Positions 3,998-24,803 of a stretch of 64,000 nt of DNA are shown one piece after another. The notes below the pieces were generated by a model, which did not search any database, was not told the origin of the DNA, and saw only the letters and a program-made list of their open reading frames with translations. The position numbers and the translations under genes were made by a program. Position 1 is the stretch's first letter; each line of letters starts with the position of its first letter. Source of the DNA: Streptomyces sp. V3I8 (GTDB lineage Bacteria > Actinomycetota > Actinomycetes > Streptomycetales > Streptomycetaceae); NCBI RefSeq assembly GCF_030817535.1, contig NZ_JAUSZL010000002.1, positions 8,246,001 to 8,310,000 of the forward strand, read 5' to 3'.

Positions 3998-4250
3998 CTG
4001 ACAGGATCCAATCGCTACCCGCCGCATTCGCACCGCGGCCAGAGCCTGCTCCAGCCACGCGGCATCGATCCGGCCCTGGCCGAGCTCGCTGCAGAGCCCA
4101 TGGTGGCCGCGGCGGTTTTCCATCGCGAGCGCCGGGTAGCTACCAGCCGTCATCCCGGGTTGGCGGATGGCACCGCCCCGGGGCCTAGGCGTACGAGAGT
4201 GGAGTTCCTGCGAATCCTCTGCGTCCCGGCGAGAGGTATCCCCATGATGT
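3998..4250 (-). mobile_element. Decayed transposase fragment (possible)
   Basis: Reading the minus strand, an uninterrupted stretch contains ENRRGHHGLC.ELGQGRIDAAWLEQALAAV. This resembles the N-terminal block RRGHGALYD.LN.GRID...L..AL found in a family of large actinobacterial DDE transposases. The preceding residues look like a frame-shifted version of the usual RFRREFY start. No intact ORF remains. It sits between the GH35 gene and two clearer IS remnants, which supports a mobile origin. The family assignment is from memory of the motif and is tentative. Confidence 0.4.
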
Positions 4251-5352: not shown

Positions 5353-6006
5353 TCAGGGCTGATCGATCTGCGCGGCGGCCCCCTCCAGGTCGGCGACGGT
5401 CCCCGACATGATCGTCCGTACGTGCCGGGTGATGTGCTGCACGGGCCAGTCCCACCACGCCACGGCGAGGAGCCGGGCGATGTCCGCGGCGTCGTAGCGG
5501 GTGCGGATGAGCCGGGCCGGGTTGCCGCCGACGATGCCGTAGTCGGGGACGTCGCCGGTGACCACGGCTCCGGCGGCGATGATCGCGCCGTGGCCGATGC
5601 GTACACCGGGCATGACCGTGGTGCCGTGGCCGAACCACACATCGTTGCCGACGACCGTGTCGCCCCGGCCGGGCAGGTCGGTGATCAGGTCGAAGTGCTC
5701 CGCCCAGGAACCCCCCATGGTGGGGAACGGGAAGGTGGAAGGACCGTCCATGCGGTGGTTGGCGCCGTTCATGATGAACCGGGTGCCCGTTGCCAGCGCG
5801 CAGTACTTGCCGATGACAAGCCGCTCGGGACCGTAGTGGTACAGGACGTTGCGCGTCTCGAACGCGGTCGGATCGTCAGGATCGTCGTAGTAGGTGAAGT
5901 CACCGATCTCGATCAGCGGCGACTTCACCAACGGCTTGAGCAGAACCACGCGCGGGTGCTCGGGCATCGGGTGGAGCACAGTGGGGTCAGCAGGAACGGG
6001 CGGCAT
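5353..6006 (-). CDS. Vat/CatB-like hexapeptide O-acetyltransferase
   Basis: 217 aa, the usual length for Vat(D)/xenobiotic acetyltransferases. It has left-handed beta-helix hexapeptides (VIGKYCALATGTRFIM, VGNDVWFGHGTTVMPGVRIGHGAIIAAGAVV). The catalytic His lies in MNGANHRMDG (H84, corresponding to the Vat catalytic histidine), with the family-typical PTMGGSWAEHFDLI loop. The family uses acetyl-CoA to acetylate streptogramin A or chloramphenicol in the cytoplasm, giving resistance. It is divergent from a TetR gene, with a perfect 14-bp inverted repeat in between, so induction by a drug-like ligand is likely. The true substrate is not determined by sequence alone. Confidence 0.85.
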   Translation of the reverse strand: MPPVPADPTVLHPMPEHPRVVLLKPLVKSPLIEIGDFTYYDDPDDPTAFETRNVLYHYGPERLVIGKYCALATGTRFIMNGANHRMDGPSTFPFPTMGGSWAEHFDLITDLPGRGDTVVGNDVWFGHGTTVMPGVRIGHGAIIAAGAVVTGDVPDYGIVGGNPARLIRTRYDAADIARLLAVAWWDWPVQHITRHVRTIMSGTVADLEGAAAQIDQP

Positions 6007-6038
6007 CGCGGAGACGGTTCCTCTCCAGTGAAATTAGA

Positions 6039-6052
6039 GCGACAAGTGTCGC
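6039..6052. promoter_or_regulatory. Candidate TetR operator between vat-like gene and tetR
   Basis: Perfect inverted repeat GCGACA-AG-TGTCGC (6-bp arms, 2-bp spacer) in the 99-bp divergent intergenic region. A possible TTAAGAT -10 element follows on the plus strand at 6054-6060. Location and symmetry fit autorepression and control of the acetyltransferase by the adjacent TetR protein. The function is inferred. Confidence 0.6.
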
Positions 6053-6105
6053 GTTAAGATGCTGGCACAGCCCTGCCGCCTTGATCAACCGGATACTGAT
6101 TGCCG

Positions 6106-6732
6106 ATGAGAGACTCACTGGACACGACGTCGGAGCGCCGTCCGGGCGGTCGCACCGCCCGGATCCGCGCCCAGGTTCTCGATGCGGTGCGCACCGAACT
6201 CGCTGAAGGCGGTCATGAAGGACTCACGATGGAGGGTGTCGCGGCGCGGGCCGGGGTGCACCGCGCCACGGTCTACCGGCGTTGGCGCGATGTCGGCGGC
6301 CTACTCGTCGACGTCATCGACGCCGCCGGCGAGATCAACTGGCAGCCGCCGAACACCGGCTCCCTGCACGGCGATCTGGCAGCCCTCAACCAGGAGATCC
6401 AGGAGTCTCTGGTCGTACAGCCGTCGTTCGCTATCGCCCTGATGGCCGCCTCGTTCCACTCCGACCAGGCCGCGCGGGCCCAGACGCAGCTGTGGACGGA
6501 CCGGTACGCCCAGTGCGAGATCCTCGTCGAGCGCGCCATCGAGCGCGGCGAACTCCCCGCACAGCACACGGATGCGCGGAGCCTGCTGATCGCTGCTACG
6601 GCGCCGCTCTACCACCAACTGGTGCTCCTGCGCGCCGATCCCGACCCGCAACTCCCGGAACGGGCCGCGGAGGCGGCAGTCCTGGCTGCTGCCGCGGGCG
6701 CCTTCTCCGCCCGCCAGGAAGAGAGCGTGTGA
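6106..6732 (+). CDS. TetR-family regulator
   Basis: About 208 aa. The N-terminal helix-turn-helix is clear: RIRAQVLDAVRTEL, TMEGVAARAGVHRATVYRRW around residues 22-65. It is followed by an all-helical ligand domain with a TetR_C-type ending. ATG at 6106 is preferred over an in-frame TTG at 6100. Divergent from the Vat-like acetyltransferase, with an inverted repeat between them, so it probably represses that operon and itself. The ligand is unknown. Confidence 0.88.
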   Translation: MRDSLDTTSERRPGGRTARIRAQVLDAVRTELAEGGHEGLTMEGVAARAGVHRATVYRRWRDVGGLLVDVIDAAGEINWQPPNTGSLHGDLAALNQEIQESLVVQPSFAIALMAASFHSDQAARAQTQLWTDRYAQCEILVERAIERGELPAQHTDARSLLIAATAPLYHQLVLLRADPDPQLPERAAEAAVLAAAAGAFSARQEESV

Positions 6733-6739
6733 TCGAGGA

Positions 6740-6931
6740 GACAGGAACGAACGCAAGCGCAATCAAGAGGGCGACAAGACCTGGATCACGGTCTCCCGTG
6801 CGGTGCGCGGCGGTGTGCGTCGAGGTGGCGGGATCCACTGCGGGGCCGGGGACCGCGGTGGCGGGCAGAGCGGTCGGGGCGGTCAGCAGGAGGGCCGGCA
6901 GAACTGGCCCGATCCAGCGGCGTCGGGACAT
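6740..6931 (-). pseudogene. 5' stub of a secreted protein
   Basis: An ATG at 6931 is preceded by a good GGAG site (5-nt spacing). It encodes a convincing signal peptide (MSRRRWIGPVLPALLLTAPTAL..., cleavage after ATA). After about 40 residues the sequence turns into unrecognisable arginine-rich readthrough over the end of the tetR gene. This looks like the surviving 5' end of an exported enzyme gene whose body was deleted. The regions on both sides also show gene decay. No family can be assigned. Confidence 0.35.
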
Positions 6932-8920: not shown

Positions 8921-9661
8921 TCACACGATGACTTGGCTGGTACGTGCGGCTGTCAGCCAGTGCGGGAATTCCTGCAGAAGCCGGTCGTACAGCAGTGCGT
9001 CATCGACCGTGCGGGGATCGCGGCCGGCGTGGAAGAAGCCTGCGTTGTCGACGATGCGGCAGGAGGGTACGGCCAGGGTGTCGAGTCGGTGCAGGAAGGC
9101 GAACTCGTTGTCGTCGGGGTCGCCGAACCCGACGAACTGCCAGAACAGGGGCAGACGGGCGGCCTTGCACAGGTAGCGCTCGGCGGCGGTCTTGCTGGTG
9201 GGCCCGCCGTCCGTCTGGAAGATGACCAGGGCGGGGTCGGTGCTGCCGGATTCGAGGTAGTGGTCGATGACCTCGTCCATGGCCCAGTGGTAGTTCGTAC
9301 GCCCCATGTGGCCGAGGTTCTCGTGCAGTTTGTCGATGCGGCCCGGGTAGTTGCCCAGGCGCAGGTCGGTGGATCCGTCGATGTCGGTGGAGAAGAACAC
9401 GACGGGTACGGTGCCGTCGTCGTCGAGGTGGGCGGACAGGGACAGGACCTGTTCGCCGAAGTACTGCATGGTGCCGTCCTTGTAGTAGGACCGCATGGAG
9501 CCGGACCGGTCCAGGACCAGGTACACAGCGGCGCGCACTCCCTCGAGGCCGTGGGTGCGCAGGCTGGCGCCGGCGGTTTTGTAGAGACTGACGAGGCCCG
9601 GGGCCTGGGCCTGCACCTTGCTCAGGCTGATCGCCGGAGCGGCGTCGCGTACTTCGGTCAT
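8921..9661 (-). CDS. vWA-domain protein (TerF-like)
   Basis: 246 aa. A complete MIDAS metal-binding motif is present: DRSGSM (D51, S53, S55), a downstream Thr (MGRTNYHWAMDEV), and FQTDGGPTSK. The fold runs across nearly the whole protein, as in the vWA domain of TerF-type tellurium-resistance proteins. Such proteins work inside the cell with TerD-family partners, but none is adjacent here. Start at 9661 has AGGA 9 nt upstream. The ligand and role are unknown; stress or envelope-damage response is the usual suggestion for the family. Confidence 0.8.
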   Translation of the reverse strand: MTEVRDAAPAISLSKVQAQAPGLVSLYKTAGASLRTHGLEGVRAAVYLVLDRSGSMRSYYKDGTMQYFGEQVLSLSAHLDDDGTVPVVFFSTDIDGSTDLRLGNYPGRIDKLHENLGHMGRTNYHWAMDEVIDHYLESGSTDPALVIFQTDGGPTSKTAAERYLCKAARLPLFWQFVGFGDPDDNEFAFLHRLDTLAVPSCRIVDNAGFFHAGRDPRTVDDALLYDRLLQEFPHWLTAARTSQVIV

Positions 9662-9952
9662 GGTCGCCGTTCCTGTAGCGGGTGCGGTCGCCGTAGCGGG
9701 TGCCCCGGTAGCGGTGCGAGGTCGCTGCTGCCCCTCCTGGACGGTCGGTGACAACCGGACAATCACGTTACAGAACGGCCGCTGTCCGCGAATAGCCCCA
9801 CGCTGCCCTGCATGTGCGGTCCTGTCCTGACTTTCCCGCACCATCATCAAGGGACAGGCGAGCAGCCCGTACGCCGGAAGTCGCCCGGGCCGCGTGGTTT
9901 TGCCGGGTGATCTTGGAGTAGCGGTTCCTCAGCGCCGGTCGCCGGTCGCCGG

Positions 9953-11305: not shown

Positions 11306-12001
11306 CGTTGATCGGTCTCCTGTCGCATGGTCGGCGCTCAACTTGTTCGAACGTGTCGAGCAAGCTCTCCGAGTCCCGACAGCCGTGTGCCATTTCTTCC
11401 CGCCTTCCACTCACGTCACACTGCAACTCCCCTGTTATGCAAGCCGGTTGGCGGATACGTCGTGATCCGCGTCCTGTTCGAGCGTGTCTGTGGGGAAATC
11501 CCTGGGTCCGCACGGCAGCGACGTGTGCAGGACCGAGTTCATCTGCCGTGGACCGGAGACGAAGGGGGACCGGCGGACCGCAGGACCGGATTCCGCCCGG
11601 CTGCTGAGCGGCGGACCGAACTCTGCTCGGCTCCGGCCCTCTCCACGCCGGGCCCGGGTCCGGCCCACGCCGGGTCCGGGTCCGGCACGGCAGGCGTTGT
11701 GGGCGATCCGGTACAGGACGACCGGTTGCGGACCGCGGTGCCGCAGCGTCCGGGCGCCTGCCCCGCCGCAGGGGCGACTTCGAACGTCCGGCTGGGCTGC
11801 CGGGGCGTGAGAGTGCCCGCGTCGTCGAAGGCTTCCTTTTCGTCCCGCAGGAGCCGGACAAGGGGATACGGTCTGTGCGGGCCGAAAAGCGGGGCAGACG
11901 TGCACGGAACGCGCCTGGCCGGTTACGTCGTCGCAGTCGGCCCATCGGCATCTCGTCCTGTCCGGTGGGATGAGTGCGGGCGATCAGACAGGGGACGCAT
12001 C
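11306..12001. other. 696-bp intergenic region, no gene seen
   Basis: Separates the divergent Endo H and PP2C genes. Contains GC-rich degenerate repeats of CGGGTCCGG/GGACCGG type around 11560-11700 and a TTGAGC element near the Endo H end. No reading frame in it has a credible start, domain or signal peptide. It may be the scar of a lost gene. Confidence 0.4.
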
Positions 12002-13303
12002 ATGGGCGCGCATCGACCGGACACGGACGGGGTGACCGGCTCCTGGTCCTCCCCGAGCGACGACGACCGGCTCCGGACGCCGGGGCTGGCCGGGGCCCTG
12101 GCCGCGGCGGAGGCCGCGCCACCGGTGGAATCGCTCGACGTGGTCGCCCACATGCTCAGGCAGCGCCTCGACGCGAGCGGGGTGTCCTTCCTCATCATGG
12201 ACTTCACCGGTACCTCGGTGGTGCGGCTGGGCGTCGCCGGGGAGGTGGAGACCGACGAACCGGCCCGGCGCATCCATCTGGCCGACACCTTGTACGACGA
12301 GGTGATCCGGACCCAGCAGCCGGCCGTGGAGACCACGGACGGATCAAGGACGGTGCGGGTCATCGCTCCGGTCACCAACCGGGGAGACGCGATCGGTCTG
12401 CTGGAACTCTTCCTGTCCACCGTGCCCGACGCGAGCGCGATGCGGGAGATCGGCGAGACCGCGCATGCGCTGGCCTACATCGTCATCGCGAACCGGTCGT
12501 ACACCGACGTGTACCAGTGGGGCCGGCGCACCAGACCGCTGAGTCTGGCCGCGGAGATCCAGCACCGGCTGCTGCCCGCGTCCCTCGCCTGCGAAGCCGC
12601 ACAGTTCACGGTCGCCGGAGCACTGGAGCCCGCCGACCATGTCGGGGGCGACACCTTTGACTACGTGATCGACCGCGACGCCGTACAACTGTCCGTCACC
12701 GACGCGATGGGCCACGACGTCGACGCCGCGCTGCTGGCCACCCTCGCCGTGGGCGCGCTGCGCGGAGCCAGGCGAGCAGGCGCCGATCTGGCCGAACAGG
12801 CCCGCCAGGCGCATCAGACGATGCTCGATCACGGCAGGCAGGGATACGTCACCGGACAGCTCCTGCGGATCAGTCTGCTCGACGGTGGTGCGGAGTTCAT
12901 CAACGCGGGCCACCCCTGGCCGCTGCGGTTGCGCGAGGGGAAGGTCCAGCAGCTCAGGATCAAGGTCGACATGCCGTTCGGCTTCCGCTTCCCGCACACC
13001 TACCGGGTCCAGCAACTGGACCTGAGGGCCGGTGACCGGTTGTTCATGTTCACCGACGGCATGCTTGAGCACAGCGCCGGCGACGTGGACCTGGAGGGCC
13101 TGATCATGCGCACCGGTAACCTGCATCCGCGTGAAGCCGCCCGCACCGTGATCGCGAAGGTCGTCGCCGCGCACGACGGTCACCTCCAGGACGACGCAAC
13201 CATCATGTGCCTGGACTGGCACGGGGTCAGGACCTCCCGACGGCATGCCGACACCGGGGCGGACCTCACCGACGCCTCGCCCTCACCGACACCGGCGCCC
13301 TGA
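12002..13303 (+). CDS. GAF-PP2C (SpoIIE-type) serine phosphatase
   Basis: 433 aa. A GAF-like sensory domain lies at roughly 44-165 (VVAHMLRQRLDASGVSFLIMD, RVIAPVTNRGDAIGLLEL). The PP2C/SpoIIE catalytic domain lies at about 190-410 with the metal-binding sites GGDTFDYV, VTDAMGHDVDAALL, FMFTDGMLEH and DDATIMCL. Such Streptomyces phosphatases dephosphorylate anti-anti-sigma factors in partner-switching systems. No cognate RsbW/RsbV pair is adjacent; a SigB-like sigma gene lies 28 kb away. Start ATG at 12002 follows AGGGGAC. Confidence 0.88.
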   Translation: MGAHRPDTDGVTGSWSSPSDDDRLRTPGLAGALAAAEAAPPVESLDVVAHMLRQRLDASGVSFLIMDFTGTSVVRLGVAGEVETDEPARRIHLADTLYDEVIRTQQPAVETTDGSRTVRVIAPVTNRGDAIGLLELFLSTVPDASAMREIGETAHALAYIVIANRSYTDVYQWGRRTRPLSLAAEIQHRLLPASLACEAAQFTVAGALEPADHVGGDTFDYVIDRDAVQLSVTDAMGHDVDAALLATLAVGALRGARRAGADLAEQARQAHQTMLDHGRQGYVTGQLLRISLLDGGAEFINAGHPWPLRLREGKVQQLRIKVDMPFGFRFPHTYRVQQLDLRAGDRLFMFTDGMLEHSAGDVDLEGLIMRTGNLHPREAARTVIAKVVAAHDGHLQDDATIMCLDWHGVRTSRRHADTGADLTDASPSPTPAP

Positions 13304-13370: not shown

Positions 13371-14198
13371 TCAGCCCTTCATCGCGCCCTGCAGCAGCCC
13401 CGCCAGGAAGCTGCGCTGGAAGACGACGAAGAGGATCAGGATCGGCAGCATCACGATGATCGTCCCCGCCGCCAGCGTCGGGATGTCCGTGCTGTTCTGA
13501 CCCACGAAGAAACCGAGGCCCGCGGGCGCGGTGTGCTTGGTGGTGTCCTGGATGAGGACCAGCACCAGCAGGAACTGGTTCCACGACCACATGAAGACGA
13601 GCAGGCCCAGCGTCATCAGGGACGGGCGCGCCAGCGGGAGCAGGATCCGCACCAGGATCGTGGCCGACGAGGCCCCGTCGATCCGGGCCGCCTCCACCAG
13701 TGACGCGGGCGTCGACCGGAAATGCGTACGCATCCAGAACACGCTGAACGGCATGAACAGCGCGATCTCCACCAGGATCACGCCCAGGTACGAGTTGGTC
13801 AGACCGACGTTGCGCAGGTCGAAGTAGAGGGGCACCACGATCAGCTCCACCGGGATGGTGAGGCCGGCGACGAAGAACGCCGCCACCGCGCCGCCGCCGG
13901 GAAGCCTCATGGTGCCCAGCGCGTACCCCGCGAGCGCGGCGAGGACCAGACAGGCGGGGACCACCCCCACCGCGATGACGAGGCTGTGCCGGATCAGGTC
14001 GGAGAAGCCCGCCACCGACCACGCCGTCTCGTAGTTGTCCCAACTCCACCGCTCCGGCCAGGTCAGCCCGACCACCGGGGTGCCCGCCGGCTGGAGCGAG
14101 GCGAGGAAGACACTGAGGAACGGGATGACGACGGCGATCGCCATGACGGTCAGCAGTGCGTAACCGGACCAGCGTTCCGAGCGCGCGACGGTGTTCAT
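13371..14198 (-). CDS. ABC sugar transporter permease (MalG/MsmG type)
   Basis: 275 aa with six predicted membrane segments. The EAA loop LVEAARIDGASSATILVRILLPLARPSL contacts the ATPase. Ends GAMKG, typical of CUT1 second permeases. Overlaps the upstream permease by ATGA. Together with the binding protein and the first permease it forms an importer, but no ATPase gene is present. In Streptomyces the shared ATPase MsiK usually serves such systems. Confidence 0.9.
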   Translation of the reverse strand: MNTVARSERWSGYALLTVMAIAVVIPFLSVFLASLQPAGTPVVGLTWPERWSWDNYETAWSVAGFSDLIRHSLVIAVGVVPACLVLAALAGYALGTMRLPGGGAVAAFFVAGLTIPVELIVVPLYFDLRNVGLTNSYLGVILVEIALFMPFSVFWMRTHFRSTPASLVEAARIDGASSATILVRILLPLARPSLMTLGLLVFMWSWNQFLLVLVLIQDTTKHTAPAGLGFFVGQNSTDIPTLAAGTIIVMLPILILFVVFQRSFLAGLLQGAMKG

Positions 14199-15115
14199 GA
14201 CTCCGACCTCGACAGACGGTTGATGAGATACACGATCGCGAGTATCAGGCAGCCCAGGACGACGGCCAGGGCCGCGGCGAGCCCCACCTTCCCCTCGGAG
14301 AACGCGAGCCGGTACACGAGCAGACCGGGGACCGTCGTCTGCTCGCCCGGGCCGCCGTTCGTCGTCACGTACACGATGTCGAAGCTGGCCAGCGCGGCGA
14401 CCGTCGTGACGGTCATGGCGACGGCGAGTTCCCCGCGCAGGTGCGGCAGCGTCACCGCGACGAACTCCCGGACGGGGCCCGCGCCGTCGATCCGCGCCGC
14501 CTCGTACAGACTCGGGTCCACCTTCTGCACGCCGCTGAGGAAGAGCATCATGCACAGGCCGCTCAGCACCCAGGTGCCGACGAGCCCCACGGCGACCAGC
14601 GCGGCGTCGAAGTCGCCCAGCCACGCACGGGTCGCACCGTCCAGCCCCACCAGGCGCAGCGCCTGGTTGACCACCCCGTCGTCCCCGTACAGCCAGCGCC
14701 AGGTCACACCGACCGCGACGAGCGGCACGACCTGCGGCAGCATGAACAGGAAGCGGTACGCGCCCATGCCGGGCCGCCGGTAACGGGCCAGCAGGCCGGT
14801 CGACAGCAGACCCAGCACGATCGGCACGAAGGAGAAGAACACCACCAGTACCAGGGCGTTGAACACCGAGCGGCGCAGCACCGGGTCCTGGAAGATCTCC
14901 GCGTAGTTGCCGAGCCCCACCCAGTCGCCCAGCGTGACCCCGTCCCACTCGAACAGCGAGAGGTACGCCGTGTGCAGGGCGGGCAGCACCGCGAACGTGA
15001 GGTACACGGCGAAGGCGGGCAGGACGTACACGTACCCGCGCCACCGGCTGCGCCCGCGGACCCGCCGGTCCCGGACCGGCGGCCTGTTCCCCATGACCGG
15101 CGGCCTACTCGCCAT
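14195..15115 (-). CDS. ABC sugar transporter permease (MalF/MsmF type)
   Basis: 306 aa with six membrane segments and the EAA motif LYEAARIDGAGPVREFVAVTLPHL. The N-terminus carries a basic cytoplasmic tail. Start ATG at 15115 has GGAGG 6 nt upstream and overlaps the end of the binding-protein gene by 11 bp. Middle gene of the SIS-binding protein-permease-permease operon, so imports whatever glycan fragment GH89 acts on or releases. Confidence 0.9.
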   Translation of the reverse strand: MASRPPVMGNRPPVRDRRVRGRSRWRGYVYVLPAFAVYLTFAVLPALHTAYLSLFEWDGVTLGDWVGLGNYAEIFQDPVLRRSVFNALVLVVFFSFVPIVLGLLSTGLLARYRRPGMGAYRFLFMLPQVVPLVAVGVTWRWLYGDDGVVNQALRLVGLDGATRAWLGDFDAALVAVGLVGTWVLSGLCMMLFLSGVQKVDPSLYEAARIDGAGPVREFVAVTLPHLRGELAVAMTVTTVAALASFDIVYVTTNGGPGEQTTVPGLLVYRLAFSEGKVGLAAALAVVLGCLILAIVYLINRLSRSES

Positions 15116-16448
15116 GATGGTCCTCCCACTCGTCCTGCAGTGAGTCGAGGTAGTCCGCGGGCGTGACACGGTCCGCGATGAGCTTCTGGACGCCGGAGCG
15201 CAGCCGGTCGAGCATCGCGGGCGCGGCGAAGTCGGGGAAGGTGGTGATCCCGTCGTCGGCGACGGCCCGCCGGTGGCCCTCCGCGATGTCCGCGAGCACG
15301 CCCGTCGGCTTCTTCACGGCGTCGGGATTGGGCGGCAGGAAACCGTTGTCACTGATGATCTGGCCCGCCTCGGGGGAGGTCAGGAAATCGAGGAACACGC
15401 CTGCCGCCGCCGCGTGTTCGGTCCGCGAGGACACGGCGTACGAGACACTGAACCCCGAGGCGACCGTGGGGGAGCCCGCCTCCTCACCGGGCATCGGGAA
15501 GAAGCCGACGTCGTCCCCCATGACGGTGGCCAGCTGCCCGGCCGCCCAGTTGCCGTTGACGAGGAAGACACTGTCGCCCTTGGCGAACCGGGCGGTCGAG
15601 TCGACCTGCGCGGTGCCGTTCGCGGACGCGTCGTAGTAGCCCTTGCGGCCCCACTCGATCATCAGTTCACTGGCCTTGAGCGCCGCCGGATTCTCCATCG
15701 TGGCGCCCTTCCTGCCGTTCACCCAGTCCCAGTACTCGTCCGTGGGCATCAGCTGGTTGAGCAGGGCCGCCCACAGGTGCAGGCCGCCGGAGTCGAGCGC
15801 GCCCACGCCCAGCGGGGTCAGCCCCGCGTCCTTCGCCGCGGCCAGCTGCTCCTCGAACTCCGCCAGCGTCTTCGGCGGGGCCTCGATGCCGGCCCGCCGG
15901 GCGAGGTCCTTGTTGTAGTAGAGGCCCGTCATCGACAGACCGGCCGGCACCCCGAACAGGGCCCGTCCACCGGTGGCCTCGCTGGTCCGGCCCGCGGTGA
16001 GCTGGTCGAGACTGACCGGGGGGACGGCCTCGTCCCAGCCGTACGCCTCCCGGTAGGGCGCCAGGTCGAGGATGTGCCCGTCCGCCGCGAGGTCGGTCAT
16101 GCCGACCGCGTACTGCGCGATGTCGGGGGCGGTGTCGGAGGTCATGGTCAGTCTGAGGTTCTGGACGTAGTCCGAGAACGACTTGTACTGCGGCTCGACG
16201 GCGATGTCGGGATGGTCCTCCTCGAACGCGGCGATCAGCGCGTCGACCATCAAGGGGGCGTCCGCGAACTGCAGCCGCAGGGTCACGTCCCCGTCCGGCA
16301 CGGCCGTCGAGGACGGCACACTGGTGGGGCCCGGCACCGCCGTCGCGCTGCCCGGGGTGAGCGCCTCGCACGCGGTGAGCGGGAGCACGAGGGCGACGGC
16401 GCAGACCGTCGCGGCGATGCGACGGCGTACCCGGCACGTGCTGTCCAT
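15105..16448 (-). CDS. Extracellular solute-binding lipoprotein (CUT1 sugar ABC)
   Basis: About 447 aa. Signal peptide with lipobox LPLTAC, so a lipoprotein anchored outside the membrane. Typical family 1 binding-protein features: LRLQFADAPLMVDALIAAFEEDHPDI, a GVPAGLSMTGLYYNKDL ligand-cleft strand, and WAALLNQL. The second of two adjacent ATGs (16448) is preferred because GGAGG lies 6 nt before it. Encoded 41 bp after the SIS gene and before two permeases. Likely ligand is a GlcNAc-containing oligosaccharide, inferred from the GH89 and SIS neighbours. Confidence 0.88.
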   Translation of the reverse strand: MDSTCRVRRRIAATVCAVALVLPLTACEALTPGSATAVPGPTSVPSSTAVPDGDVTLRLQFADAPLMVDALIAAFEEDHPDIAVEPQYKSFSDYVQNLRLTMTSDTAPDIAQYAVGMTDLAADGHILDLAPYREAYGWDEAVPPVSLDQLTAGRTSEATGGRALFGVPAGLSMTGLYYNKDLARRAGIEAPPKTLAEFEEQLAAAKDAGLTPLGVGALDSGGLHLWAALLNQLMPTDEYWDWVNGRKGATMENPAALKASELMIEWGRKGYYDASANGTAQVDSTARFAKGDSVFLVNGNWAAGQLATVMGDDVGFFPMPGEEAGSPTVASGFSVSYAVSSRTEHAAAAGVFLDFLTSPEAGQIISDNGFLPPNPDAVKKPTGVLADIAEGHRRAVADDGITTFPDFAAPAMLDRLRSGVQKLIADRVTPADYLDSLQDEWEDHHGE

Positions 16449-16489
16449 CATCGGCCTCCTTGCGTGGTCTCGTCGGTCGGATCGCTGCG

Positions 16490-17224
16490 TCAGCCCCTCG
16501 GACAACGATCCTGGAACCGTTCCAGCAACGTCCTGTTGCGGTCTTCGGCGTCCGCGTCGGTGTTCTGGCTGACGATCAGCGGCGGCGCCTGTCCGTGGTG
16601 CTCGGCCAGCAGCTGGGCCGCCCGGCAGGTCAGCGCGTTGACCAGGGCCGCCCCCAGCACCGTGGAGAGGGCTCCGACGGCCAGGCCGCCCAGCGGCACC
16701 ACCGTGTCGCCGGGGCTGCCGTGGGTGTCGATGACGATGTCGGCGACGTCGAGCAGGCGCTGCCCGCCGGTGTGCCGGGACACGGCGGCCAGCGAGTGGG
16801 CCCGGCTGGTGACGGCGACGACGGTCGCACCCGACTCCCGTGCCCCCAGGGCGAATTCGACGGGTACGGCGTTGATCCCGGAGTTGGAGATCACCACCAC
16901 CACCTCACCCGCCCTGATGTCCGCCGTGCGCAGGATCGCCGCGGCGTAGCCGCTGACGCGCTCGGCCGCGCCGGCGCGGCGCGGCGCGACGGGGGAGAGC
17001 GCCGGGTCGGCGATGACGTTCACCGGTGCGAGCCCTCCGGCGCGCTGCAGCGGTTCGACGGCGACGAGCTGGGAGTGGCCGCTGCCGAAGTAGTGGACGA
17101 CGCCCCCGGCGGTGACACTGTCCGCGACCGCCCGAGCGGCCCGCTCGATCGCGGGCCGCTCGGCGCCGGCCAGCGTGGTGAGGGTCTCCTGGAGTGCGGC
17201 GAAATAGGCGAGATCCGCGTTCAT
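16490..17224 (-). CDS. SIS-domain sugar isomerase/deaminase-like protein
   Basis: 244 aa. Single SIS domain: VHYFGSGHSQLVAVEPLQRAGGL, then VVVVISNSGINAVPVEFALGARESGATVVAVTS. These are the phosphosugar-binding serines and loops of the family. First gene of the minus-strand ABC operon and divergent from GH89. Proteins of this type act on amino-sugar phosphates. With GH89 next door, N-acetylglucosamine-6-phosphate or a related sugar is the likely substrate, but this is inference. The -E..RAG.. SIS subgroup is often uncharacterised. Confidence 0.8.
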   Translation of the reverse strand: MNADLAYFAALQETLTTLAGAERPAIERAARAVADSVTAGGVVHYFGSGHSQLVAVEPLQRAGGLAPVNVIADPALSPVAPRRAGAAERVSGYAAAILRTADIRAGEVVVVISNSGINAVPVEFALGARESGATVVAVTSRAHSLAAVSRHTGGQRLLDVADIVIDTHGSPGDTVVPLGGLAVGALSTVLGAALVNALTCRAAQLLAEHHGQAPPLIVSQNTDADAEDRNRTLLERFQDRCPRG

Positions 17225-17273
17225 CGTGTCGAGGCCACCCGGGTGTCGAACGGAGCCGCTGGATGGCTGTGGA

Positions 17274-17292
17274 CCGTACCAGTGGGGTACGG
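17274..17292. promoter_or_regulatory. Inverted repeat, candidate GntR operator (SIS side)
   Basis: CCGTACC-AGTGG-GGTACGG, perfect 7-bp arms with a 5-bp spacer, 50 bp upstream of the SIS start codon. Shares the GTACC/GGTAC half-site with the palindrome at 17379-17392 on the GH89 side. Two related half-site pairs in one divergent region, beside a GntR gene, argue for a common repressor. Confidence 0.65.
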
Positions 17293-17339
17293 GGATGCCC
17301 AGCCCCGCGGACAACAAAGCCTTGGTTCCGTCGACTTGC

Positions 17340-17368
17340 TTGACCGCTCCGCGTGGCGGGTCTAGCTT
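17340..17368 (+). promoter_or_regulatory. Candidate housekeeping promoter for the GH89 gene
   Basis: TTGACC (17340-17345), 17-bp spacer, TAGCTT (17363-17368): close to the Streptomyces HrdB consensus TTGACN-N17-TAGNNT. The predicted start of transcription (about 17375) lies just before the palindrome at 17379, so a bound repressor would block it. Confidence 0.55.
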
Positions 17369-17378
17369 CTTGGGTCCC

Positions 17379-17392
17379 GTGGTACGTACCAC
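17379..17392. promoter_or_regulatory. Perfect palindrome, candidate GntR operator (GH89 side)
   Basis: GTGGTACGTACCAC is a perfect 14-bp palindrome 24 bp upstream of the GH89 ATG and immediately downstream of a TTGACC/TAGCTT promoter. The GGTACGTACC core resembles HutC-subfamily GntR operators (GGT...ACC). Probably bound by the GntR protein encoded after GH89. Confidence 0.7.
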
Positions 17393-17415
17393 AGTCGACA
17401 GGGGTGGTCCGGACG

Positions 17416-19623
17416 ATGTCACCTTTCGGGGAACCGGACGCGCAGGGTGTGGCCGCGCGGCAGCTGCTCGGGCGCCTCCTGGGGGACCGGGCCGCGGAGT
17501 TCACCGTCGACGTGGTCCCCGCGGGCGGCGGACCCGACGGATACGAGCCTGGCAGGTACGAGCCCGGCAGGTACGAGCCCGACTGGTACGAGATCGACGC
17601 CGGACCGGGCGGTGTGACCCTACGCGGATCCAGCGGTGTCGCGGTCGCCTCGGCGCTGCGCCGGTACCTGCGGACCGCCTGCGGGACGCAGATCACCTGG
17701 GACGCCCCCGTCCCCCGGCTCCCGGACCGGCTGCCGCGCACCGGCACGGCTGCCCGGACGACCTCCCCGTACCGGCACCGCTACCACTTCAACGTCTGCA
17801 CCTTCGGCTACACCACGGCCTTCTGGGACTGGGCGCGCTGGCAGCGCCACATCGACTGGATGGCCCTGCACGGGGTGACCACACCGCTGGCCATGACCGG
17901 TCTGGAGGCGGCCTGGCAACGGGCCCTCCTGGCCGTCGGCCTCGACGACGGGACCGCCCGGCGCTTCCTCGGCGGGCCGGCCTACCTGCCGTGGAACTGG
18001 CTCGCCTCGCTCGACGGCTGGGCCGGCCCCCTGCCCCAGAGCTGGATCGACGCGCACACCGGCCTCGGCCGCCGCATCCTGGAACGGGAACGGGAACTGG
18101 GCATGCGACCCGTCCTCCAGGGCTTCTCCGGACACGTGCCGCGCGAGCTGATCGAGGCCCGGGGCGCCCGGTCGACGACCCTGCCCTGGTGGGACTTCGA
18201 GGTCGGGATGCTGGACCCGCGCGACCCGCTCTTCGAGGAGTTCGGCACCATCCTGCTGACCGAGCAGACCCGGCTGTTCGGCACCGACCACCTCTACGCC
18301 GCCGACCCGTTCATCGAGACGACGCCCCCGGTGACCGACCCCGCCGAACTCGCCCGGGTCGCGCGGGCCGTGCACGGGACCATGACCGCGGTGGACGACC
18401 GGGCCACCTGGGTGCTCCAGGCCTGGCCCTTCTCCTATCGCTCCCGCTACTGGACCCCGCCGCGCACCCAAGCCTTCCTCGACGCCGTCCCGGACGACGG
18501 CATGCTGGTCCTGGACCTGTGGGCCGAGCACCGGCCGGTCTGGCGGCGCACCGAGGGCTACCGGGGCAAGCCCTGGGTGTGGTGCATGCTGCACAGCCTC
18601 GGCGGACGGCCCGGTCTCTACGGAAAACTGGACGAGATCGCGACCGGCGCCGCCCGCGCGGGCGCCGACGCACACGGCGGATCGCTGGCCGGGACCGGCA
18701 CCGGCATGGAGGCCTTCGGCGGCGACCCCGTGCTGTACGAACTGCTCGCGGACGTCGCCTGGCAGGGGGCCGTCGACGACGTGCACGCCTGGCTGGAGAC
18801 CTGGACCCGCGCCCGGTACGGCCGTACGACCCCCGGGCTGCTGCGCGCCTGGGAACTGCTGCACGACAGCGTGTACGCCTCGGACGGACCCGGACCGCCC
18901 GGCTCGGTCGTCATCGGCCGCCCCACGCTGGAGGGCGACCTGCGGCACGAGCTGCCGGTGCACCTGGCCGACCCGCCGTCCCCCGACCCGCCGCCCGGTC
19001 TGGCCGAGGCGTGGGTGCTCCTCGCCGGCGAGGCGGCGAAGGAGGACAGCGCCGGCCCGCTCGGCCGCGACCTGTGCGACGTCACCGCCCAGGTGCTCAC
19101 CCACGCGGCGTGCGCACGGCAGTGGCGGGCGGCGGACGCGGCCCTGGCCCGGGACGCCGGCCGCTTCCACCGGGCCGCGGCCGAACTGCTCGACACCGTC
19201 GCTGACCTGGACGACCTCCTCGCCACCCGCCCCGAGTACCGGCTGGACACCTGGCTGGCCGACGCCCGCGCCTGGGCCACCACCGAGGCCGAGGCCGACC
19301 TGTACGAGGGCAACGCACGGCGCCTGCTCACCCTCTGGGGCCACACCCGCGGCAGACTGCACGACTACTCCGGCCGCCACTGGGCCGGTCTGGTCCGCAC
19401 GTTCCACCTGCCGCGCTGGCGGAGCTGGTACGAGCACATCGCCCGGGCGCTGGAGACCGGATCCCCTTACCGGCCCGAGGAGTTCGAGGCGTCGCTGCTC
19501 GCCCAGGAGGAACGGTGGGTCGCCGCCCGGAGCGCGACGACGGCACCGGGACCGGACACCGCCGCGTCGACCCTTGACGTGGTGCGTACTCTGATGCCCC
19601 GCTACCGCGTTCTACGGCGGTAG
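17416..19623 (+). CDS. GH89 alpha-N-acetylglucosaminidase (NAGLU-like)
   Basis: About 735 aa. The family signatures are unmistakable: YHFNVCTFGYTTAFWDWARW, HIDWMALHGVTTPLAMTG, GFSGHVPREL, WWDFEVGMLDP. A GMEAFGGDPVLYELLADVAW stretch probably contains one of the two catalytic glutamates. Lacks a signal peptide, so probably cytoplasmic, acting on imported oligosaccharides. A three-copy 15-bp repeat encodes YEPGR units near the N-terminus. ATG 17416 chosen because it lies after the promoter/operator. Divergent from the SIS-ABC operon, and followed 27 bp later by its GntR regulator. Releases terminal alpha-GlcNAc, as found in heparan sulfate or mucin-type glycans. Confidence 0.92.
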   Translation: MSPFGEPDAQGVAARQLLGRLLGDRAAEFTVDVVPAGGGPDGYEPGRYEPGRYEPDWYEIDAGPGGVTLRGSSGVAVASALRRYLRTACGTQITWDAPVPRLPDRLPRTGTAARTTSPYRHRYHFNVCTFGYTTAFWDWARWQRHIDWMALHGVTTPLAMTGLEAAWQRALLAVGLDDGTARRFLGGPAYLPWNWLASLDGWAGPLPQSWIDAHTGLGRRILERERELGMRPVLQGFSGHVPRELIEARGARSTTLPWWDFEVGMLDPRDPLFEEFGTILLTEQTRLFGTDHLYAADPFIETTPPVTDPAELARVARAVHGTMTAVDDRATWVLQAWPFSYRSRYWTPPRTQAFLDAVPDDGMLVLDLWAEHRPVWRRTEGYRGKPWVWCMLHSLGGRPGLYGKLDEIATGAARAGADAHGGSLAGTGTGMEAFGGDPVLYELLADVAWQGAVDDVHAWLETWTRARYGRTTPGLLRAWELLHDSVYASDGPGPPGSVVIGRPTLEGDLRHELPVHLADPPSPDPPPGLAEAWVLLAGEAAKEDSAGPLGRDLCDVTAQVLTHAACARQWRAADAALARDAGRFHRAAAELLDTVADLDDLLATRPEYRLDTWLADARAWATTEAEADLYEGNARRLLTLWGHTRGRLHDYSGRHWAGLVRTFHLPRWRSWYEHIARALETGSPYRPEEFEASLLAQEERWVAARSATTAPGPDTAASTLDVVRTLMPRYRVLRR
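17542..17586 (+). repeat. Three 15-bp in-frame tandem repeats in GH89
   Basis: Units TACGAGCCTGGCAGG, TACGAGCCCGGCAGG, TACGAGCCCGACTGG encode (YEPGR)n near the N-terminus. The spacing keeps the reading frame. Probably a surface linker or insertion tolerated by the N-terminal domain. Confidence 0.7.
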
Positions 19624-19650
19624 CGGACAGGCGCGAACCGCGGAGTGAAT

Positions 19651-20388
19651 GTGACGGTCGAGGACAGGCGCTCGGACGACGGCCCGACGACGGACTCCTA
19701 CAAGCACGAGGCGCTGCGGCGACGGCTCCAGGCCGACATCGCCGGGATGCGCCCCGACGAGGCGCTGCCCACCGAGCGGCAGCTCGCCGAGCGGTACGAC
19801 GTCAGCAGGGCGACCGCCCGGCGCGCGCTCCAGGCGCTCCGCGAGGACGGTCTCGTCCGCAGCGTGCGGGGCGTCGGTACGTTCGTCTCGCACCCCAGGA
19901 TCACCAAGACGTCGACCCTCACCTCGTTCTCCGAGGACCTGCGCTCGCGCGGCTACCGGCCCAGCGCCGAACTCCTGTCCACGGAACTCGTCGAGGCGGA
20001 CCTGCACCACTCCACGGCGCTGGGCGTCGACCCCGGCACCACCCTGCACCGCATCGAACGGCTGCGCCTCGGCGACGGCTTCCCCATCTGCGTCGAGACG
20101 GTCTACCTCTCCGCCGAGCGGTTCCCGGACCTGGACGAATCCCTCCTGAAGGGCTCGCTCTCCGAAGCCCTGCAGCTCACCCAGGGCGTCCGGGTGGTGC
20201 GCGCCACCCAGCAGATCCGCGCGGTGAACGTGACCGGCCGCCAGGCGCACCTGCTCGGCGTCAAGGAGGGCTCCGCCGCCCTGCTGGTCCGCCGCACCGC
20301 GTACGACGGGACGGGCCACGTCGTGGAGTACGGGGAGTCGCTGTGCCGGGGCGACCTGTACGAGTTCTCGCTGGTGGTGACGGTCTAG
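19651..20388 (+). CDS. GntR/HutC-family regulator with UTRA domain
   Basis: About 245 aa. The winged HTH lies at roughly residues 13-82 (YKHEALRRRLQADI, LPTERQLAERYDVSRATARRALQAL, VRSVRGVGTFV). A UTRA effector domain follows (TSFSEDLRSRGYRPSAEL, GTTLHRIERLRLGDGFPICVETVY). GTG at 19651 is favoured by GGAG five bases upstream; an in-frame GTG at 19645 is too close to it. UTRA domains typically bind phosphosugars. With GH89 and SIS neighbours, GlcNAc-6-P or a related amino-sugar phosphate is a likely effector. Confidence 0.9.
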   Translation: MTVEDRRSDDGPTTDSYKHEALRRRLQADIAGMRPDEALPTERQLAERYDVSRATARRALQALREDGLVRSVRGVGTFVSHPRITKTSTLTSFSEDLRSRGYRPSAELLSTELVEADLHHSTALGVDPGTTLHRIERLRLGDGFPICVETVYLSAERFPDLDESLLKGSLSEALQLTQGVRVVRATQQIRAVNVTGRQAHLLGVKEGSAALLVRRTAYDGTGHVVEYGESLCRGDLYEFSLVVTV

Positions 20389-20528: not shown

Positions 20529-21206
20529 ATGGCACTCATCAGCACCCGGCTCGACTCCGGACCCGGCTCCGGCCGGGCCCCGGCCCACGCGCCACGGGCC
20601 GAGGAGGGGGACACCCCGCCCTCCCGCTTCGACGACCACCTCGCCGCCCAGCTCCTCAACCAGCGCATCGTCTTCCTCGGCACCCAGGTCGACGAGGTCT
20701 CCGCGAACCGGATCTGCGCGCAGCTGCTCCTGCTCTCGGCGGAGGACCCGCGCACCGACATCGGCCTCTACATCAACAGCCCCGGCGGATCCGTCCACGC
20801 GGGCCTCGCCATCTACGACACCATGCGGCTCATCCCCAACGACGTGGCGACCCTGGCCATGGGGTTCGCCGCCAGCATGGGGCAGTTCCTGCTCACCGTC
20901 GGCACCCCGGGCAAGCGTTACTCGCTGCCGAACGCGCGCATCATGATGCACCAGCCGTCGGCCGGCATCGGCGGGACGACCGCCGACATCGCCATCCAGG
21001 CCGAGAACCTGCAGTTCACCAAGGAGACCATCGAGCGCATCACCGCCGAGCACACCGGCCGGAGCGCGGAGACGATCTCCCGCGACGGCGACCGCGACCG
21101 CTGGTTCACGGCCGAACAGGCACGGGAGTACGGCATGGTCGACCGGGTCGTCGAAGCCCTCGACGACGTACGCCCGGCGGCCTCGAAGCGACGGATGGGA
21201 CTCTGA
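20529..21206 (+). CDS. clpP3: ATP-dependent Clp protease proteolytic subunit 3
   Basis: 225 aa. Full catalytic triad: S116 in GFAASMGQ, H141 in [10 protein letters not shown]190 in GDRDRW, plus YINSPGGSV. The N-terminal extension of about 30 residues is longer than housekeeping ClpP. AGGAGG before the ATG. Followed by clpP4 at a 1-bp gap and by a convergent popR-like gene. This is the arrangement of the second Streptomyces clpP operon, which is induced by PopR when ClpP1P2 is missing. Forms a mixed tetradecamer with ClpP4 and partners with ClpX/ClpC. Confidence 0.92.
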
Positions 21207-21207
21207 C

Positions 21208-21813
21208 ATGGGCCAGTACACGATCCCGAACGTCGTCGAGCGCACCCCGCAGGGCGAGCGCACCTACGACGTCTACAGCCGGCTGCTGTCCGAGCGGATC
21301 ATCTTTCTCGGCACCGAGATCGACGACGGGGTGGCCAACGTCGTCATCGCCCAGCTGCTCCATCTCGAGTCGGCGGCCCCCGAGCAGGAGATCGCGATCT
21401 ACCTCAACTCGCCCGGCGGCTCGTTCACCTCGCTCATGGCGATCTACGACACGATGAGCTACGTCGGCGCGCCCATCTCGACGTTCTGCGTCGGACAGGC
21501 CTCCTCCACCGCGGCGGTGCTCCTGGCGGGGGGAGACCCGGGACGGCGCTTCATCCTGGAACACGCGCGGGTGCTGCTCGGCCAGCCCGCGAGCGGCGGG
21601 GCGCAGGGCACCGTCTCCGACCTGAGCCTGCAGGCCAAGGAGATGCTGCGGATCCGCTCGCAGGTCGAGGAGGTGCTGTCCCTGCACACCCACCACCCCG
21701 TCGAGACCCTGCGCGCCGACATGGACCGCGACAAGGTCTTCACCGCACAGGAGGCGGTGGCGTACGGACTCGCCGACGAGGTGCTGGGCCGGCGCCTGGC
21801 GGCCGCCGCCTGA
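21208..21813 (+). CDS. clpP4: ClpP-family subunit 4, catalytic His replaced
   Basis: 201 aa. ClpP fold is obvious ([37 protein letters not shown]). Ser is kept (GQASSTA, S100), but the histidine of the MHQP motif is replaced by Gly in LLGQPASGG (G125). It is probably a catalytically dead partner that assembles with ClpP3. Starts one base after the clpP3 stop, so transcribed together. A 10-bp perfect hairpin overlaps its stop codon and separates it from popR. Confidence 0.9.
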
Positions 21814-21833
21814 GGGCATCTCTCTCAGGCGGC
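21805..21833. terminator. Hairpin terminator between clpP4 and popR
   Basis: GCCGCCTGAG, 9-nt loop, CTCAGGCGGC: perfect 10-bp stem overlapping the clpP4 stop codon. Located between two convergent genes, so likely works in both directions. Confidence 0.6.
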
Positions 21834-21850
21834 GCGGTCGCCGGCGCGGG

Positions 21851-22276
21851 TCAGGCGGCGAGCAGGACGGAGCCCGACCGGAGGCTCGCCTCCGTGCGGT
21901 GCGGCGCGGTACGGGACCGCAGCGGGCGCGGCTGCGCCGGGCGCACGAGGCGGCGGTGCGTCAGGGCCAGCAGGTCGGCGAGGCCGAGACCGAGCGCGTG
22001 GGCGGCGGCCGCGAGGACCTCGGACGAGGCCTCCTTGCGGCCGCGCTCCAGCTCGGAAAGGTACGGCATCGAGATGCGCGCCGCGTCGGCCACGTCCTTC
22101 AGCGTCCGTTCCTGAGCCAGCCGCTCACGCCGCAGGACGTCCCCCACGACGTCCCGCCACAGCGGTTCCCGAGGCGCCGCCGGCGGCTCCTCGACCGCTT
22201 TCGGCGGCTCGGCCGGTCGCGCCGGAACGGGTCGCAGGGGAATGACGCGGGCTCGGTCGGACGCGTGGCTGCTCAC
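21851..22276 (-). CDS. popR: PopR-like HTH activator of the clpP3-clpP4 operon
   Basis: 141 aa. A Cro/cI-type HTH lies at roughly residues 46-105: [40 protein letters not shown]. The C-terminus ends SVLLAA; a terminal AA is the ClpP1P2 degradation signal in ClgR and PopR of Streptomyces. That tail and the location next to clpP3-clpP4 identify PopR. The GTG start has an awkwardly close ribosome site (GGAGGG), and an in-frame stop lies just upstream. A palindromic PopR box was not found before clpP3, so binding here remains to be shown. Confidence 0.85.
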
Positions 22277-23504: not shown

Positions 23505-24803
23505 TCAGGCTCCGAAGAGCTGTGTCCAGTACGTGCCCGCCGAACCGCCGCCCGCGAAGCCGACGCCCAGGTGGGTGAAGGCGGGTTTGAGGATGTTGGC
23601 GCGGTGGCCGGGGCTGTCCATCCAGCCGCGCACGACCTCGGCGGGGGAGCGCTGGCCGCAGGCGATGTTCTCGCCGACGGTGCGGCGGGTGCTGCCCGCG
23701 GCGGCGGCCCGGTGCCAGGGCTCGCTGCCGTCGGGGGAGGTGTGGGAGTAGAAGGCACGGGCCACCATGTCCGTGCTGTGCGCCTGCGCCGCCCCGGCCA
23801 GCAGGGGGTCGCCGGCCAGGGGCGGCAGTCCGGCCGCGGCCCGCTCGGCGTTGGTGAGCGCGAGGACCTCGGCGGCGGTCCGCGCCAGCCCGGCGGGGGT
23901 CAGGGGCCCGGCCCACACGGCCGTCCAGTACGGCGTCCCGGACCGGCCGTCGGTCACACACGCCACACCGGCCTCGGTGAACGCCGGGTCCCGGACCGTA
24001 CGCCGGGACCGGTCGCCCGAGAGGCAGTACTCCACGAACTCCGCCGCGTCGCGCGGCCCCGAGACGAGGTGCTCGCCGATCGGGAGATAGGCGTAGCCCC
24101 CGGCGGTGACGCGCTGGTACAGGGAGATCCCGTCCGCGCCTTCGGAGCCGAGGCGTCCGCGCTCCGCCATCCCCCCGCAGTGCGCCCGCGCGGCGGCGGT
24201 CAGCCGCGCGTCGAGGACGACGGGCGGGGACCCGGCGCCGGCGCGGGCGGAGTTCACGAGCCGCAGAAACCCGCCGGCGACGGGATCGGCGCCGTCCGCT
24301 CCCGCGGCTGCGGAACCGGCGGTGTCCTCGGCCACCTCGACGCCGAAGTCCCGGGCGATCCCCGCCAGCCCGTCGGCGTAGCCCTGGCCCAGCGCGCGCA
24401 GCTTCCAGACGGGGCCGCGGCGGTAGATCTCCGCGAGCAGCAGCACGGTCTCGTGCTGCGGGCGCGGCGGCGTGAAGCGGGCCAGGGGGCGGCCGTCCGG
24501 GCCGGTGACCAGCAGGGCCGGCGCGGGGAGCCGGCCCAGCGGAATGCCGGGCTCGGCCGGGCTGACGACGACGGTGACGCGGCTCGCCCCGGCCCGCAGC
24601 GCGGCCGGATCGACCGTGAGGGCCTCCCCGCCCAGGCGCGCACCGGGCGCGGCCGGCTGGTTGTAGAACACGAAGTCGCCGTCGTCGCGCACCCGGCCGC
24701 CGTCGTCCGTCACGAGCGCCGACACGTCGAACGGGCCGGGCACCCGGAGGGTCAGGACACCACCGGGCAGCGCCAGGTTGCCACCGGGAACCAACTCGCT
24801 CAT
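23505..24803 (-). CDS. TerD domain fused to two CAP/SCP domains
   Basis: 432 aa. Residues 1-165 are a TerD-family domain (LVPGGNLALPGG, ALVTDDGGRVRDDGDFVFYNQP, VTVVVSPAEPG). Residues about 177-297 form a degenerate CAP-like unit (LVNSARAGAGSPPVVLDARLTAAARAHC, GEHLVSGP). Residues 311-432 form a canonical CAP domain (LTNAERAAAGLPPL, HSTDMVARAFYSHTSPDG, GENIACG, WMDSPGHRANIL). No signal peptide, although CAP domains are usually extracellular. A calcium-binding TerD module on an intracellular CAP protein is unusual. Function unknown. Confidence 0.85.
   Translation of the reverse strand: MSELVPGGNLALPGGVLTLRVPGPFDVSALVTDDGGRVRDDGDFVFYNQPAAPGARLGGEALTVDPAALRAGASRVTVVVSPAEPGIPLGRLPAPALLVTGPDGRPLARFTPPRPQHETVLLLAEIYRRGPVWKLRALGQGYADGLAGIARDFGVEVAEDTAGSAAAGADGADPVAGGFLRLVNSARAGAGSPPVVLDARLTAAARAHCGGMAERGRLGSEGADGISLYQRVTAGGYAYLPIGEHLVSGPRDAAEFVEYCLSGDRSRRTVRDPAFTEAGVACVTDGRSGTPYWTAVWAGPLTPAGLARTAAEVLALTNAERAAAGLPPLAGDPLLAGAAQAHSTDMVARAFYSHTSPDGSEPWHRAAAAGSTRRTVGENIACGQRSPAEVVRGWMDSPGHRANILKPAFTHLGVGFAGGGSAGTYWTQLFGA

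Follow-up and report, generated by a model that had tools for sequence, protein, structure and literature searches.

What six adjacent genes of Streptomyces sp. V3I8 are for, and what controls them, is the question raised by a divergent locus at positions 13371 to 20388 of the 64,000-nucleotide stretch analysed here (hereafter the window). An earlier examination of the letters without database searches, the sequence-only reading, had described a self-contained regulon of a GH89 glycosidase, a GntR regulator, an SIS-domain protein and an ATP-binding cassette (ABC) importer. Comparison with related loci shows that the gene arrangement is real and conserved; the regulon is probably self-contained. 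As a working answer, there are fair grounds to regard it as a catabolic unit, induced by its substrate, for small glycosides that carry an alpha-linked N-acetylglucosamine (GlcNAc) cap.

The leftward arm encodes, in order of transcription, an SIS-domain protein of the NF002805 / UPF0309 group (16490..17224, minus strand; SIS_2; NF002805 243.5 bits, cut-off 135), a sugar-binding lipoprotein (SBP; 15105..16448, minus strand; PF01547, SBP_bac_1, 114.8 bits), and two ABC sugar permeases. Permease 1, permF (14195..15115, minus strand; PF00528, 55.5 bits), overlaps the SBP gene by 11 bp and permG by 4 bp; permG, permease 2 (13371..14198, minus strand; PF00528, 55.6 bits), shows 89-97% identity in the 13 aligned rows that reach it, and both permeases are BPD_transp_1 proteins by Pfam. 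The rightward arm consists of a GH89 alpha-N-acetylglucosaminidase, predicted to be cytosolic (17416..19623, plus strand; PF05089 413.9 bits, with PF12972 and PF12971), and a GntR regulator of the HutC (UTRA) type (19645..20388, plus strand; PF07702 137.5 bits, PF00392 59 bits). Apart from the overlaps of 4-11 bp, genes within the arms are separated by 21-41 bp. Pfam and NCBIfam thus bear out the gene make-up and divergent strands of the sequence-only reading, on gene calls from a simple caller written for this analysis. The SBP possesses a lipobox-like LTAC, judged by eye, and its best PDB match is NagB2, a binding protein for chitin oligosaccharides (73 bits, covering part of the length). 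No ABC ATPase gene accompanies the SBP and the two permeases within the six-gene unit, which supports the earlier claim that an ATPase from outside is needed; outside the unit the genome has two OB_MalK matches as candidates for this role, one barely at the cut-off.

The unit recurs in 16 aligned Streptomyces rows (the window, L006-L008 and L035-L046) with the gene order kept in all. L006 and L036 share an identical gap sequence, so the 16 rows represent 15 distinct loci. Rows L006-L008 stop inside the SBP gene; among the 13 rows long enough to reach the permeases, 12 contain all six genes, and in L041 the SIS gene is reduced to remnants while the rest of the unit is kept. A GH89 search of 199 Streptomyces genomes gave some match in 87, four of which (strain V3I8 included) reached at least 81% identity, the remaining matches lying at 28-39%. 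Scanning GTDB contigs with GH89 yielded 18 loci, 12 from Streptomyces (73-89%) and six from other organisms (32-50%). The unit is rare within the genus Streptomyces but stable where present. Five out of 396 Actinomycetota genomes possess GH89 at E 1e-40, too few for statistics on gene context. In one protein search the 8000 best candidates were scored, and the best 120 of 1368 matches were listed.

The NAGLU N, TIM-barrel and C domains of the GH89 protein all score above their cut-offs. Both catalytic glutamates, matched via alignments to the solved structure, are present in all 16 rows. The best PDB match is 4xwh (466 bits), human NAGLU. Read from the ATG at 17416, the protein has no signal-like start: the highest 12-residue Kyte-Doolittle mean within the first 45 residues is 0.92, compared with 2.81 for the SBP as positive control. 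The corresponding values for L038, L040 and L043 (0.17, 1.44 and 1.24) rest on doubtful automatic start choices, and a control with secreted paralogues (0.92-2.11), for which open frames were used, is not clean. The hydropathy scan agrees with the earlier view that GH89 lacks a signal peptide, and a cytosolic enzyme would require import of the glycoside before trimming. Two other contexts support this order of events. In Murinocardiopsis (L047) the GH89 gene follows SBP and permease genes that are only distantly related to those of the unit, and in L052 nagA and nagB share a strand with a GH89 gene that shows no obvious signal sequence. The enzyme is predicted to release terminal alpha-GlcNAc. 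A Bacteroides GH89, Bt3590, cleaves heparosan oligosaccharides (PMC8225759).

The 191-bp gap between the arms harbours two candidate operators. Operator 1, GTGGACCGTACCAG (17269..17282), is identical in 16 out of 16 rows; operator 2, GTGGTACGTACCAC (17379..17392), has a 12-bp core that is exact in 13 rows and carries one mismatch in the other three. Their cores in this unit are TGGACCGTACCA and TGGTACGTACCA. For the SIS operon, a candidate -35 element TGGGCA (17296..17301, minus strand; TGGGCA or TGTGCA in 14 of the 16 rows) stands 17 bp before a candidate -10 element TACGGT (17273..17278, minus strand), which lies inside operator 1, so that the conservation of these -10 letters is not independent evidence. 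For GH89-gntR, the candidate -35 element TTGACC (17340..17345, plus strand) has TTGAC in every aligned row and is followed after 17 bp by a candidate -10 element TAGCTT (17363..17368, plus strand), recognised in the row alignment of the gap; operator 2 starts 10 bp past it. Placement of one site over the SIS -10 and of the other just past the GH89 -10 likely fits a single repressor closing both promoters.

Both motifs of the sequence-only reading, CCGTACC-N5-GGTACGG and the palindrome at 17379-17392, occur with zero mismatches at the positions it named. The second palindrome holds as an operator. The spaced repeat was rejected as a functional unit, being present in the window and in none of the other rows, and the conserved left site is operator 1 instead. 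Both operators have the HutC consensus form GT-N4-AC (PMC4494728), with one half of operator 1 imperfect; natural NagR sites are imperfect too (PMC4333415). The central TA of the HutC consensus is absent from both. Testing the two operators for a TGGTCTAGACCA-like dre site was negative. A related GntR in L134 has TGGTCCGAACCA immediately upstream of its own gene. The distance between the operators is 110 bp in 11 rows, 107-111 bp in four and 122 bp in one (L042). By our own arithmetic 110 bp is about a half-integral number of turns, and with the 122 bp of L042 DNA looping is not argued here. In L008 (the locus of genome G128) the first in-frame GH89 ATG falls within operator 2, hence the mRNA there may be leaderless.

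Taken on their own, the repeats are only moderately unlikely by chance. Among 5000 dinucleotide shuffles of the gap, 105 contain a perfect 14-bp palindrome and 203 contain at least two inverted repeats of 7 bp whose gap is no longer than 8. Across the window, the 14-mer with up to three mismatches has six matches versus 2.76 expected (5 of 100 shuffles reach six), and the spaced repeat has nine versus 7.38 (30 of 100 shuffles reach that). Two copies of TGGN2CGTACCA appeared in none of 5000 gap shuffles, a pattern picked after the sites were seen. The operators are judged to be more than chance because they are kept across 16 orthologous gaps.

The sequence-only reading had also proposed a genome search for further sites. 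The perfect 12-bp core TGGTACGTACCA occurs once in the 9.3-Mb genome. The pattern TGGWMCGKWCCA fits 14 places, compared with three for the reversed control, an excess without explanation; beside the 12 of these places outside the locus and one one-mismatch place no amino-sugar genes were recognised, by eye on our own gene calls and without family scans. The looser GTGGWMCGKACCAS with one mismatch gave 49 matches versus 20-25 for controls in this genome, and 32 versus 24, 44 versus 27-34 and 45-48 versus 33-40 in three relatives. A single target locus is suggested by the solitary perfect core together with the inspection by eye, and the description as self-contained probably fits so far. In L065 an exact operator 1 core (4009-4020; genome C2:3749508) stands about 100 bp before an aldo/keto-reductase-like gene, which may be chance or a further target. 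In the literature TGGTACGGTCCA was found in two papers, both unrelated by title and abstract.

The regulator contains both the GntR winged helix and the UTRA domain by Pfam, and among solved structures DasR (141 bits) and NagR/YvoA (139 bits) are its closest relatives. Arg38, Arg48 and Gly69 of NagR read the bases (PMC4333415). The effector phosphate is held by an arginine pair and the N-termini of two helices, and the sugar is contacted, in DasR numbers, by Glu154, Tyr177, Arg221 and Tyr238 (PMC4333415, PMC4918961). The base readers, the arginine pair (Arg139 and Arg141), Glu154, Ser175 and Arg221 are kept across the 16 rows, and the position of Thr99 has Thr in a single row and Ser in the other 15. 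In all 16 orthologues Ser173 and Cys234 stand in place of Tyr177 and Tyr238. Both tyrosines are present in nine out of nine other regulators, namely five HutC-type proteins encoded in this genome and four that come from SIS clusters (those of L131 and L133 are near copies). SauR, named as the one regulator in the alignment whose residue at Tyr177 is not aromatic (PMC4918961), offers a precedent for loss of that contact.

This pocket is the most unusual part of the unit. With the phosphate arginines in place, the effector is likely phosphorylated or otherwise negatively charged. GlcNAc-6-phosphate (GlcNAc-6-P), the effector suggested earlier, is doubtful in that role, since the two sugar-contacting tyrosines are Ser and Cys in every orthologue. 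More tentatively, a HutC sensor with a rebuilt pocket and the phosphate clamp kept might respond to some other, perhaps larger, phosphorylated compound derived from alpha-GlcNAc glycosides, such as a phosphorylated disaccharide or what the SIS protein makes, and the SIS protein might then add another reaction type to the NagS/MurQ group, as part of an uptake route dedicated to alpha-GlcNAc; we consider this combination possible but less likely than not.

The best solved match of the SIS protein is NagS (9eol, 131 bits), and its orthologues share 36-40% identity with the NagS of the same genome; on the MurQ model it scores 22.4 bits, far below the cut-off of 168. NagS (SCO4393), which adjoins dmdR1, converts GlcNAc-6-P to 6P-chromogen I; the identity threshold of its clade is 58.7%, and loss of Ser91 lowers kcat/Km 40-fold (PMC12680351). 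His53, Ser54, Arg64, Glu94, Ser119, Ser121, Asp179 and Asn228 of NagS are kept in the SIS protein, and these essential residues do not discriminate because nearly the whole family keeps them. In the SIS clade Gly or Ala replaces Ser91, and Gln replaces Gly227. The genome carries a separate NagS beside a gene taken by eye for dmdR1. In the tree, 14 SIS rows form one clade (100/100) and NagS another (100/100). Judged from residues and tree, the SIS protein is most probably not NagS.

The nearest neighbours of the SIS clade are L105/L106 (97/98), whose SIS genes stand in a setting of BadF kinase and ABC genes; in L134 GntR and nagA are present as well. Of nine SIS relatives at 44-53% identity, six lie beside phosphotransferase system (PTS) genes (four mannose-type, two GlcNAc-type with a nearby nagB) and the other three next to a BadF kinase. 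They are not nine independent cases, as L102, L103 and L104 are near copies; key genes were scanned in L131, L134, L135, L137, L138 and L139, and the other contexts were judged by eye. The BadF kinases and PTS genes nearby make an amino-sugar 6-phosphate the probable substrate of the SIS protein. The SIS gene of L131 has PTS genes, a full MurQ (407 bits), a GH3 enzyme and a beta-lactamase-fold protein in its vicinity and probably serves another phosphosugar there.

GH89 enzymes release GlcNAc without phosphate. A kinase would thus be needed ahead of the SIS protein, and the earlier claim that it handles the released phosphosugar is corrected in this respect. The relative Streptomyces sp. SBT349 (L044), and no other, carries a BadF-type kinase gene (5747-6790) between the divergent promoter and the SIS gene. 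An additional site-like TGGTACGGACCG was seen near the 5' end of that kinase gene. Strain V3I8 possesses three BadF relatives (42, 31 and 36% identity), and the neighbourhoods of two were inspected.

The route that we propose is as follows. The lipoprotein and the two permeases, powered by a shared MsiK-type ATPase, would import the glycoside, and cytosolic GH89 would remove the terminal alpha-GlcNAc. A kinase coded elsewhere, or within the operon in Streptomyces sp. SBT349, would make the 6-phosphate. Related to NagS and MurQ, the SIS enzyme would take this compound, or an amino-sugar 6-phosphate close to it, as its substrate and feed NagA/NagB. Without substrate, a GntR dimer would sit on operator 1, over the SIS -10, and on operator 2, at about +1 to +14 of GH89-gntR, repressing both arms and with them its own gene. 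A phosphorylated or otherwise negatively charged effector would free GntR; given the changed sugar half of the pocket, it is probably not GlcNAc-6-P itself.

Several observations speak against this route. A strict sigma-70 scan of the divergent gap found neither candidate promoter. Kinase, nagA and nagB genes are all missing from the unit in the window, and the best BadF relative in the genome (42%) stands alone without an operator-like site. On GlcNAc-6-P, three NagS homologues with 26-36% identity showed little or no activity (PMC12680351). The tree placement of the SIS clade involves L105 and L106, which are long branches meeting. Finally, L041 retains the unit without an intact SIS gene, which makes the SIS protein dispensable at least there.

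Other explanations were weighed against the same data. Control of the sites might rest with DasR or with a different HutC regulator encoded by the genome, the local GntR being a co-regulator or acting elsewhere. The genome encodes at least five other HutC-type regulators, one of them DasR-like, 39% identical and with the same base-reading residues, and TGGT....ACCA is shared by DasR sites. Nevertheless, the operator centres lack the TA, gntR adjoins GH89 in all 16 rows and the operators are kept along with it, and we regard outside control as unlikely. The enzymology could also differ. If the SIS protein were a second NagS, that is, a GlcNAc-6-P dehydratase, its nearest solved structure and the eight kept active-site residues would be explained; however, almost every family member has those residues, Ser91 and Gly227 are changed, the identity to NagS lies at a level where tested homologues failed, and a NagS in a separate clade already exists in the genome, which together make this improbable.

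About equally improbable is a cell-wall-type substrate, with the SIS protein as an etherase-like enzyme acting on a MurNAc-6-P-like sugar rather than on GlcNAc-6-P. It would agree with a Parapedobacter locus (L048) in which a true MurQ gene (364 bits, cut-off 168) directly precedes the GH89 gene, and with the GH3 enzyme, beta-lactamase-fold protein and PTS genes that accompany some SIS relatives, as in L131. However, L048 is one case of six non-Streptomyces GH89 loci, the full MurQ of L131 leaves another task to the SIS protein beside it, and the SIS protein of the unit fails the MurQ model. GH89 enzymes are not known to release MurNAc. The import-first unit for alpha-GlcNAc glycosides remains the reading that we prefer.

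Similar to DasR with dasABC-MsiK and NgcEFG, which serve GlcNAc and chitobiose uptake in S. coelicolor, the unit combines a HutC regulator, an SBP and two permeases without an ATPase gene, and a GlcNAc product (partly from PMC4918961). Unlike these systems, it has a regulator of its own in which Tyr177 and Tyr238 are replaced, its operators lack the dre centre, it includes GH89 and SIS genes, and there is apparently one target locus. NagR (YvoA) of Bacillus subtilis has the same domain make-up, base-reading Arg38/Arg48/Gly69 and phosphate arginines, but retains the sugar-contacting tyrosines and has another operator centre and other targets. With NagS (SCO4393) the SIS protein shares the fold and most active-site residues, and differs by its distance, separate clade, changed Ser91/Gly227 and place within an ABC/GH89 unit; with MurQ it has the superfamily and the phosphosugar pocket in common, at scores far below the MurQ models. 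Human NAGLU, CpGH89 and Bt3590 have the three NAGLU domains and both catalytic glutamates in common with the GH89 of the unit, which unlike them lacks a signal sequence and is coupled to an ABC importer. The sequence-only reading knew of no described Streptomyces system of this make-up, and no publication on the six-gene unit was found among the top matches in the openly licensed PMC literature, a weak negative. The parts are of known kinds; the combination, the control sites and the altered sugar pocket of the regulator look new.

Beyond the permeases lies a SpoIIE-domain gene (11327-13303), and the regulator is followed by two ClpP genes (20529-21206 and 21208-21813) and an XRE-type regulator recognised by eye (21851-22276, minus strand). 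The ClpP pair also follows the unit in L035-L040, L043 and L046. Together these genes (20529-22276) resemble the clpP3-clpP4-popR arrangement of Streptomyces. A TerF-type vWA protein (8921-9850) and a protein with TerD and CAP domains (23505-24803) flank the region. In other genomes, the Parapedobacter MurQ gene stands 24 bp before GH89 in the same orientation, and after them come a pair of genes resembling SusC/SusD (judged by eye) and a NagP-like transporter (L048, 6011-9124). SIS genes of the same group are found within mannose-type PTS genes in L131-L133 and L136. A Streptomyces SIS gene of another branch has as neighbours genes for a large secreted glycosidase-like protein, for an RpiR-type regulator and for an SBP (L142, 4816-16452; by eye).

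If the proposed route is true, some Streptomyces would, in addition to the chitin/DasR route, own a route dedicated to alpha-GlcNAc glycosides in which import comes first. The locus would also provide a compact repressor-operator pair and place a branch of the NagS/MurQ group in a defined pathway, and two pocket residues of the regulator would be singled out for their possible effect on the choice of effector.

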